IMG/VR virus record: IMGVR_UViG_3300033150_001469
Location: 1 to 38,499 of that record
Length of the DNA: 38,499 bases
Origin: a virus
Direction: 5' to 3' (one strand)
Shown here: positions 17,067 to 20,377 of the stretch, piece by piece
How positions within the stretch are numbered: the first letter of the stretch is position 1
Layout: each line of letters opens with the position of its first letter
Notes under the pieces: generated by a model
What the model saw: the letters and a program-made list of their open reading frames with translations, nothing else
Told to the model about the DNA's origin: nothing
The model's database searches: none
Program-made: the position numbers and the translations under genes

Positions 17067-17963
17067 GTGGCAGGCAAGATCCTCAAGCTGAATGCGGCGG
17101 TCGCTAGGCGGACAGATTTAACCCCGAGCGACAAGCTCGTCTTGGCCGTTCTCAGCGCCTACGCTGGCGCCAATCGGGCGACATGGCCGGGAGTTCGAGT
17201 CCTGGCGAGGGAGTCGGGTTTGCACCGGGTAACGGTCCTGAGAGCCATCAGGAGATTGGAAACACGCGGGTTAATGGTGAGCGGCTACAGAAAGAGCCCT
17301 GCGAACAGATCCAGTGTCGCAAAATGCGACCGGTCGCAAAATGCGACCGTTCGCAAAATGCGACCGACTCTGGTTGCAAAATGCGACCAGCCTTGGTCGC
17401 AAAATGCGACCCCCCTTGGCTGCAAAATGCGACCGGTCGCAAAATGCGACCAGTCGCAAAATGCGACGATCTCCGGTCGCATAACCGACGGCGGTTCGGA
17501 CGGTAATGGCGATTCTTACGCGCGCGCGCACGCGCGCGACAGTACTAACAGTAGTAATATAGTTACTAATAGATCCCTTAGTAATAGTAATCCCCTAAAG
17601 GGGGGGGATAAAAGGGGGGGGAAAGAGCGCCGGCACGAGCCGTTTGCCGATGCCTTCCGCGAAGCTTTCGAGTCGCACTTCGGTACGACCTACTCCTGGG
17701 CCAAGTCAGATTTCGTGCAGCTTGCTGCGTGGCGGAAGAACTGGCCGGCCGTCTCTCCCGGGGAGTTTGCCGAGACGGCGAAACGCCTCTGGAGTCTAGG
17801 ACAATTCGCCCCCGCCGCCAGCCTGACCATACGGGGGATGTGCGCCCGGTGGCCTCAGTTGCAAGCCACACTTCGACTGCGCGGAGGCGGAAGTCGTTAT
17901 GACATCCATCCTGACGGCTACGACGAAGGGATCTGTGTCAATGACCGAAATGACCGTCCATGA
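17067..17963 (+). CDS. Replication initiator, lambda O-like, with origin inside the gene
   Basis: 298 residues from GTG 17067. The N-terminal ~75 residues form a winged-helix domain (TPSDKLVLAVLSAYAGANRA, ARESGLHRVTVLRAIRRLE) as in phage replication initiators. Residues ~84-134 are translated iterons (repeating AKCD, QNAT and KMRP), followed by a Ser/Asn-rich low-complexity linker from the AT-rich segment. The C-terminal domain (~195-285) would contact the helicase loader. The layout of N-terminal DNA-binding domain, origin inside the gene and a DnaC-like gene immediately downstream (overlapping by 65 bases) is that of lambda O/P. It should bind the iterons and bring in the host helicase. Confidence 0.82.
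   Translation: MAGKILKLNAAVARRTDLTPSDKLVLAVLSAYAGANRATWPGVRVLARESGLHRVTVLRAIRRLETRGLMVSGYRKSPANRSSVAKCDRSQNATVRKMRPTLVAKCDQPWSQNATPLGCKMRPVAKCDQSQNATISGRITDGGSDGNGDSYARAHARDSTNSSNIVTNRSLSNSNPLKGGDKRGGKERRHEPFADAFREAFESHFGTTYSWAKSDFVQLAAWRKNWPAVSPGEFAETAKRLWSLGQFAPAASLTIRGMCARWPQLQATLRLRGGGSRYDIHPDGYDEGICVNDRNDRP
17317..17467 (+). repeat. Eight origin iterons with symmetric 17/23-bp spacing
   Basis: Eight copies of TCGCAAAATGCGAC start at 17317, 17334, 17351, 17374, 17397, 17420, 17437 and 17454; the copies at 17374 and 17420 differ at the first two bases only. Each is an inverted repeat (GTCGCA-AAA-TGCGAC), suiting a dimeric initiator. Start-to-start spacing is 17, 17, 23, 23, 23, 17, 17. 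All spacings are 2 modulo 3, so successive copies cycle through the three frames and leave the gene open. A degenerate half site follows at 17477. This is the probable replication origin. Confidence 0.88.
17518..17594 (+). other. Putative DNA-unwinding region beside the iterons
   Basis: A 21-base alternating purine-pyrimidine CG run (17518-17538, prone to left-handed DNA) is followed by an AT-rich block (17541-17594) unique in this GC-rich genome. The block repeats TAGTAA/TTACTA units, including TAGTAATAGTAA at 17579-17590, which resembles DnaA-trio elements. The position next to the iterons matches the AT-rich unwinding region of lambdoid origins. Confidence 0.6.
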
Positions 17964-19020: not shown

Positions 19021-19268
19021 TTGTACCCAAATTGTACCCAAACGGGCGCAACGCGAGCGCAATTCCACGTCAAGGCACACGCAATGTGCGTTGCATATTC
19101 TTGCAGCGGCGTACGTTAGATACTGGCACGCAAGGGCTTACAGCGCCCTTCCTTAGCTTGGGAAGCTGGCATTCTGCCACTGAATTACGCCCGCATGTCG
19201 TTAAACCGTAAAGGATTGCGTGGCTCGGAGATTCTCGGCAACAAAATTGTACCCATTTTGTACCCAAA
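19021..19268. other. Phage attachment site attP with phased arm repeats
   Basis: Two pairs of TTGTACCCAAA-type direct repeats flank a core. The left pair starts at 19021 and 19032, the right pair at 19247 (TTGTACCCA, then T) and 19258. Within each pair the spacing is 11 bases, one DNA turn, and all four point the same way, as expected for integrase arm-type sites. The core lies at the anticodon stem-loop of a tRNA-Gly fragment, with inverted core half-sites AGCTT-GGG-AAGCT at 19155-19167. The int gene ends 15 bases to the right. An AAGGGC/GCCCTT inverted repeat at 19132-19150 adjoins the core. Confidence 0.85.
19155..19194 (-). tRNA. 5' half of a tRNA-Gly(CCC), attachment core, not a complete tRNA
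   Basis: On the minus strand, 40 bases reproduce the 5' part of a tRNA-Gly: acceptor strand GCGGGCG, TA, a D arm ATTC...GAAT, then the anticodon stem and loop CCAGC-TTCCCAA-GCT (anticodon CCC). Identity stops three bases into the 3' strand of the anticodon stem. No T arm or 3' acceptor strand follows. This is the part shared with a host tRNA gene at which integration would occur, with crossover in the anticodon loop. It is unusual that the phage carries the 5' half and not the 3' half. Confidence 0.85.
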
Positions 19269-19282
19269 CTGGTTGTCAAGCG

Positions 19283-20377
19283 CTACGATGGCTTGGCGAC
19301 AAGAGCCGGCTGTGCAGCCCGCTCGAAGTCGCTGTCCTTGACCCGGTGGTAGTAGGTCGCGGCGACCTCGGGGCTGTGTCCAAGCCACTGGCAGACTGTA
19401 TACGGGTCGAATCGCTGCATCCAGTCCATTTCCGCGTTTTTTCGCAACGTGTGGCACCAGCGTTTCCACGCCGGAACGCCTGCCCGCTGGCAGAGTGACC
19501 GGAAACCCTTCCAGAGGTGATTCTGCTTGGGAAGACTTTCTGGCGGGATGACCCGCGGACCGGACAACTCGCTGGAGGCGCGCGCGTAGGCATCAACCAA
19601 CAGCCGGTAAAGGTCCGGGTCGATCGGAACCTCGCGGCAGGCATCCTTCGTAGTGCGGTAGCGGCGCTTGCTGACGACCCATAGGCGCCGCGTCTCGAAG
19701 TCGACGTGCTCCCATCGCAGCCGAAGGGCCTCGCCTTGCCGTAGGCCAGCTAGCCGGCAAAGGGCCAACAACAGCTGCCAGCCGATGGACGGGCTGGCGT
19801 CCACAAGCCGCCAAAGCAGCTCGCGGCTGACGTAGAACCAGCGCTTTTCCGGGCGGGGCGGCGTGCCTCGGAGTCCGACAAATGGGTTCCGCAAGAGCAG
19901 GCCCTCGCGGGTGGCGGCCTGAAAGATCGCCTTGGCCTCCCTGACGCTACGGCAGACTGTCGGTTCGCTGGGAACGCCCCGCATCCGGCGGTTTGCGCCG
20001 GCTAGCTCGCCCCGCTCGAGCGCCGCTCGCCAGTCGGCCGCATCGGCAGGCGTGATCTGGTCCATGCGTATCGCGTCACCGAAGTAGGCCAGCAGGTAGC
20101 GGATCGTCTGCCGGTACAGTTCCACAGTACCCGGCGCGAGGCGCGGGCGGTTCCGCAAGTAGCGTTCGGCGTAATCTCGCAGGGCGGGGGCGTCCCCGGG
20201 CTCCGTCCGGCCGCTGTTCAGCTCAAGCTGGAGCAGGTCGACTCGGTGTTGGGCGGCCCGGCGGGTAATCTTGGCGCGTGACCCGAGGCCCTTGGCGTGC
20301 TGCCGGCCCAGATGGTCACGCCATCGGGCTTGCCAATATCGGCCGTTGCAGACCAAGTGAACGTGTATCAGATTCAT
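19283..20377 (-). CDS. int: Tyrosine-family integrase
   Basis: 364 residues. N-terminal ~60 residues are an arm-binding-type domain (CNGRYWQARWRDHLGRQHAKG), ~65-165 a core-binding SAM-like domain, and ~180-355 the catalytic domain. Catalytic residues are visible: R213 in LAGLRQGEALRL, Lys near 237-244, H309 and R312 in HTLRKN, H334 in LGHSPE and nucleophile Y343 in TYYHRV. Its ATG overlaps the stop of the XRE gene (ATGA). attP lies just downstream on the same strand, as in many temperate phages. It would catalyse integration into a host tRNA-Gly gene, probably with host DNA-bending proteins. Confidence 0.95.
   Translation of the reverse strand: MNLIHVHLVCNGRYWQARWRDHLGRQHAKGLGSRAKITRRAAQHRVDLLQLELNSGRTEPGDAPALRDYAERYLRNRPRLAPGTVELYRQTIRYLLAYFGDAIRMDQITPADAADWRAALERGELAGANRRMRGVPSEPTVCRSVREAKAIFQAATREGLLLRNPFVGLRGTPPRPEKRWFYVSRELLWRLVDASPSIGWQLLLALCRLAGLRQGEALRLRWEHVDFETRRLWVVSKRRYRTTKDACREVPIDPDLYRLLVDAYARASSELSGPRVIPPESLPKQNHLWKGFRSLCQRAGVPAWKRWCHTLRKNAEMDWMQRFDPYTVCQWLGHSPEVAATYYHRVKDSDFERAAQPALVAKPS

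Follow-up and report, generated by a model that had tools for sequence, protein, structure and literature searches.

A probable attachment site carrying the 5′ half of a tRNA-Gly(CCC) gene behind the integrase of a T7-like phage

The integrase locus and the tRNA-derived block

The stretch of DNA analysed here (the window) is an IMG/VR contig of 38,499 bp without terminal overlap. Its terminase (termin_lrg_T7, 486 bits), T7-type RNA polymerase (RNA_pol, 389.5 bits) and Gp10A-like capsid protein, which are accompanied by a nozzle protein, place it among the T7-like phages. A rightward replication cluster with Sak4-like, O-like and DnaC-like genes meets a leftward cluster that ends in the integrase gene int, and the putative attP is located where the two meet. 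The product of int matches PF00589 (44.2 bits, cut-off 27.1), the SAM-like domain PF14659 and the phrog_1 integrase family (E 4e-46), and the R..K..HxxR..H..Y motif of tyrosine recombinases is readable in its translation. Inside the O-like replication initiator gene (17067–17963), at 17319–17467, GCAAAATGCGAC recurs eight times as part of palindromic TCGCAAAATGCGA units; this array probably represents the iterons of the origin from which the phage replicates.

Downstream of int and on the same strand, at 88 bp as compared with the roughly 90 bp given by the first-pass annotation, is a 40-nt block, GCGGGCGTAATTCAGTGGCAGAATGCCAGCTTCCCAAGCT, that corresponds to nucleotides 1–40 of tRNA-Gly(CCC) and diverges from nucleotide 41. 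It runs from tRNA base 1 to a point shortly beyond the anticodon loop, and the 3′ half is absent. The search of bacterial genomes that the annotation had proposed, for a tRNA-Gly(CCC) gene with these first 40 bases, returned the identical 40-mer in nine genomes of a GTDB genome scan (six Rokubacteria, with Binatia, Spirochaetes and Sedimentisphaerales), always as nucleotides 1–40 of an intact tRNA-Gly(CCC) gene. Past the block, the host genes read GCTGG..., whereas the phage reads GCTAAGG.... The inverted repeat that the annotation had described as of crossover type is present at the anticodon loop as the core AGC-TTCCCAA-GCT, the arrangement of attP sites that target tRNA genes at the anticodon loop. 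Identity with the host stops 3 bp beyond TTCCCAA, the presumed overlap, and the cleavage positions would be those of known anticodon-loop integrases. No complete tRNA was found in the window by ARAGORN, and the Rfam tRNA model gave a weak alignment to 19194–19125 (17 bits, cut-off 29). Just beyond the break point, a hairpin, AAGGGC-gctgtaa-GCCCTT (19130–19155, minus strand), offers the tRNA model a fake T-arm; it may be a chance feature.

The block is flanked by the word TTGTACCCA, which occurs four times in the 38.5 kb, always on the plus strand, as compared with 0.05 occurrences expected; none of 100 shuffled sequences had four. The copies form two pairs with 11-bp spacing exactly as first annotated, and on sequence alone they constitute candidate arm-type pairs on both sides of the core (Table 1). 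Elsewhere in IMG/VR, pairs of TTGTACCCA were found at 25 loci, some of them by chance, and at three of these (L007, L012 and L021) they flank tRNA 3′ halves. The shared arm word is treated as a lead at most, because the integrases are weakly similar and some of the hits are chance matches. Two more of the 25 loci resemble the window in layout. In IMGVR_UViG_3300025645_000205 (L018, 600–900), int is followed by a TGTAGCCA pair, the 5′ half of tRNA-Leu(UAA) and a TGTACCCA pair, in the order seen in the window, and the integrase is weakly similar to that of the window. In IMGVR_UViG_3300031760_000595 (L013, 5200–5400), int has behind it, in the same orientation, what is probably the 5′ part of a tRNA, together with a TTGTACCCA pair.

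Table 1. Features of the putative attP region in the window
Feature	Position	Strand	Comment
int, tyrosine integrase, 364 aa, complete; last gene of the leftward cluster, reads towards attP	19283..20377	-	
Arm-type site 1, int-proximal pair, TTGTACCCA	19258..19266	+	Position conserved in L199, similar in L212
Arm-type site 2, int-proximal pair, TTGTACCCA	19247..19255	+	Position conserved in L199, similar in L212
Gap between int stop and tRNA block, 88 bp, holding one arm pair	19195..19282	-	No promoter- or terminator-like site detected
tRNA-Gly(CCC) nucleotides 1–40 (5′ half), attP identity block	19155..19194	-	Exact 40-mer in nine genomic genes; 39/40 in L199
Presumed 7-bp overlap (strand exchange) TTCCCAA, the anticodon loop, within the AGC/GCT inverted repeat	19158..19164	-	From sequence
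Arm-type site 3, distal pair, TTGTACCCA	19032..19040	+	Position conserved in L199, similar in L212
Arm-type site 4, distal pair, TTGTACCCA	19021..19029	+	Position conserved in L199, similar in L212

Two related phages that carry opposite tRNA halves

Scanning of viral contigs for the 21-mer of the anticodon arm identified L199 (also G633), the end of IMGVR_UViG_3300005512_000106 (38,908 bp), which is a related T7-like phage. Its integrase is the closest found to that of the window (44% identity over 352 residues), and matches to the window were also found in the RNA polymerase (44%), terminase (48%), capsid (38%) and head-tail adaptor (44%). Nucleotides 1–40 of tRNA-Gly(CCC) start nine nucleotides past the int stop, on the same strand, and break off at the same nucleotide 41. 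The block is identical to that of the window at 39 of 40 positions (97%), the single difference being GGTAG for GGCAG, whereas each flanking segment has 17–46% identity and cannot be aligned. Counted from tRNA nucleotide 1, the arm-type sites start at −72, −60, +158 and +169 in L199 and at −71, −60, +155 and +166 in the window, but the arm sequence is GGCTCCAA in the former and GGGTACAA in the latter. A layout that is retained while its letters change is expected of a functioning integrase–attP pair. With the same half, the same break point, nearly the same arm positions and a different arm sequence, L199 is an independent replicate that argues for a real attP carrying the 5′ half, as the first-pass annotation had read the site.

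The second relative, L212 (IMGVR_UViG_3300033153_007313), has an integrase 42% identical to that of the window. The tree groups the window with both L199 and L212 with good support (97/94, from a rough bootstrap), the order within the group being unsettled. The arm pairs of L212, TTGCACAA, are located at −127/−116 on the left and +124/+135 on the right of the core; the outermost left site, read by eye, has one mismatch, and relative to the window the left pair is displaced outwards by about two helical turns. Across the clade, the arms are found at about −93/−104 or −116/−127 from the core on the int side and at +122 to +136 on the far side. L212 is thus like the window in belonging to the same supported clade and in the distances of its arms from the core. 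In contrast to the window, it has between its arms the orthodox 3′ half, that of tRNA-Pro(UGG), antisense to int, with an identity confirmed against genomic tRNA-Pro(UGG) genes.

As read from these contigs, both halves occur in one integrase clade, with the captured tRNA in opposite orientations to int. Read along the strand of int, the presumed overlaps are TTCCCAA (Gly-CCC, sense) in the window and TCCCAAA (Pro-UGG, antisense) in L212, and complementary anticodons may have eased the switch of target, although three phages are no proof. We tentatively suggest, as a possibility somewhat short of even, that the orientation of the target rather than the integrase sets the half that is carried, the intasome geometry having stayed nearly fixed while the target moved between tRNA genes with complementary anticodon loops. 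If true, one such switch would convert 3′-half to 5′-half capture and shift control of the rebuilt tRNA from the host to the phage.

Chromosomal kin and precedents for 5′-half capture

The nearest chromosomal kin of the integrase, with up to 37% identity, are in Planctomycetota. In 48 of 60 such kin an intact tRNA gene converges on the int stop (3′ half, opposite orientation), and an adjacent tRNA in the orientation of the window was found in 0 of the 60. Displaced copies, where found, are 3′ fragments of 15–24 nt that start at tRNA nucleotides 51–60, pointing to a target in the T-arm or T-loop. The window has neither a convergent 3′-half tRNA nor a displaced fragment of 15–24 nt, and the target rule of these kin therefore differs from its own; as convergent 3′-half cases with break points in the T-arm or T-loop, they were ruled out as proof of the same geometry. 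In many of the planctomycetal loci (L043, L045–L054 and others) the codons for the integrase C terminus (ending, for example, in GLEPVTSSV) lie in the tRNA 3′ half, on its antisense strand, suggesting that the tail of the protein is edited by integration.

A close integrated relative was not found among 392 Planctomycetota genomes and 95 genomes of the Rokubacteria phylum, and a search with the RNA polymerase for prophages in 148 genomes of one planctomycete order returned none. Rokubacteria are a possible host on the tRNA match alone, but no similar integrase was found in the 95 genomes of the phylum. The 40-mer fits several phyla. Behind int in the T7-like viral relatives L069, L109 and L111, a tRNA fragment was not detected. 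At one locus (L113, 3764–6528), two integrases face a single intact tRNA-Arg(CCT) from opposite sides, 5′ and 3′; the integrase adjoining the 5′ end is 27% identical, and a second prophage is on the other side. These are possibly two prophages that took different halves of one tRNA gene; the locus is suggestive rather than proof.

That the 3′ half is the usual choice, as the first-pass annotation had assumed, agrees with the Islander collection, in which 3760 islands have a 3′ fragment and 159 a 5′ fragment (159/3919) (PMC4383910). The latter are like the window in that the 5′ part is on the element; in them the host 5′ fragment is displaced upstream (PMC4383910), as would be predicted for the window. 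They are a statistical class of chromosomal islands and not a family. Cases are also known among phages. In T7-like cyanophages such as P-SSP7 and S-TIP37, int is immediately followed by a 39-bp attP motif, in each case corresponding to the first half of tRNA-Leu, and their integration requires both int and attP but does not give stable lysogeny (PMC8776855). They share with the window the position of attP directly behind int and an identity block, some 39 nt long, that reproduces the first half of a host tRNA gene; they differ in the tRNA (Leu), in their marine cyanobacterial hosts and in that integration is experimental there, whereas for the window it would follow from the arrangement of the site. 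The pelagiphages that were checked comprise HTVC105P and HTVC109P, with the 5′ half of tRNA-Leu(UAA), and HTVC120P, with that of tRNA-Arg(UCU). Pelagiphages of the HTVC019P type are likewise RNA polymerase-encoding T7-like phages with int followed by a tRNA 5′ half on the same strand, but the tRNAs are different ones and the block is between int and the RNA polymerase gene. No significant similarity was found between the HTVC105P integrase and that of the window (E 0.38), from which we infer that T7-like phages seem to have reached 5′-half capture more than once. By contrast, a 3′ half is present in ProddE, and the cores of LUZ100 and HTVC200P are short anticodon-loop stretches. Archaeal integrases of the pTN3-like group also use the 5′ half, the rebuilt tRNA being expressed from the integrase promoter (PMC8371274). 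In this group (TKV4-type), attB is the tRNA 5′ half and the rebuilt tRNA is parted from its promoter, as proposed for the window (PMC8371274, PMC5495485), but the elements are archaeal plasmids or proviruses and the integrase gene is split on integration, whereas it is whole in the window.

Rebuilding of the tRNA and alternative explanations

The site is very probably the attP of an integrase-carrying T7-like phage that recombines at the anticodon loop of tRNA-Gly(CCC), with the int-side junction rebuilding the tRNA under transcription from the phage side. The N-terminal domain of the integrase would bind the two TTGTACCCA pairs and the catalytic domain the AGC-TTCCCAA-GCT core, which would recombine with the anticodon loop of the host gene. 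One junction, predicted to read host upstream sequence, tRNA nucleotides 1–40 and AAGGAAGGG, would place a non-functional 5′ half behind the host promoter. The other would join int and the phage block to tRNA nucleotides 41–75 and host downstream sequence, giving an intact tRNA-Gly(CCC). When phage nucleotides 1–40 were joined in silico to host nucleotide 41 onward, an intact tRNA-Gly(CCC) was obtained in 9 of 9 candidate hosts; the opposite junction gave an intact tRNA in 0 of 9. Cut off from the host promoter, the rebuilt tRNA would depend for its transcription on read-through out of int or on a weak promoter located within the last part of int or immediately after it. Read-through is plausible for the window, where no promoter- or terminator-like site was detected between int and the block. 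In L199, the gap behind int is only 9 nt, but a promoter-like site, TTGACA-17-GATACT, within the final part of int and about 100 bp ahead of the block, matches 10 of 12 consensus positions with 0.1 such sites expected; it would fit a small dedicated promoter. Points against this reading of the site are the lack of a promoter-like site in the gap of the window, the failure to find an integrated prophage in the genomes searched, the occurrence of the 40-mer in several phyla and the different target rule of the planctomycetal kin.

It is very improbable that the block is instead a relic or degenerate form of a phage-encoded tRNA-Gly gene with no attachment site. The Rfam model can be threaded through the whole of 19194–19125 by using the AAGGGC/GCCCTT hairpin at the T-arm position, but its score is below the cut-off, ARAGORN reports no tRNA and the anticodon stem is down to three pairs. 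A decaying gene, moreover, would not retain exactly nucleotides 1–40, with conserved arm positions, in two phages whose flanks cannot be aligned. We consider it unlikely, if less so, that the site is an attP in which the core alone matters and rebuilding of the tRNA is irrelevant, the 5′ half being a passenger and GGG codons being read by tRNA-Gly(UCC). Crossover needs the core and short flanks alone, tRNA-Gly(CCC) is often dispensable, and some T7-like phages make do with short cores: in HTVC200P and LUZ100 the core is an anticodon-loop stretch, and LUZ100 has its own tRNA-Leu. However, all 40 nucleotides up to tRNA base 1 are kept in both phages while their surroundings have diverged. This points to selection that keeps the tRNA working, or to the block having been repeatedly taken up again from host genomes.

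A different possibility, to which we give appreciable but less than even weight and which is compatible with the attP assignment, is that the element integrates without forming stable lysogens and needs the rebuilt tRNA only transiently. The T7-like cyanophages with a first-half tRNA-Leu attP behave in this way (PMC8776855), and the window proteins that were scanned yielded no recognisable repressor. A small repressor could easily escape notice, however, the scan covered part of the window ORFs, and the replication module, with its O-like protein and DnaC-like loader, differs from that of T7.

The first-pass annotation thus holds as regards the attP, the captured 5′ half and the 3′-half rule, but the arrangement is not new, having precedents in T7-like cyanophages, pelagiphages and pTN3-like archaeal integrases. 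It is a rare, already documented arrangement, found here in a phage lineage and an integrase lineage that are both new, and the T7-like phages with 5′-half capture thereby gain another, unrelated integrase lineage. Such capture, found in a small minority of mapped islands, places a host tRNA under phage transcription, and software for host prediction and island mapping that presumes the 3′ half should be used with corresponding caution. Because the carried half changes among the three phages while the arm layout is constant, what decides the half becomes testable.
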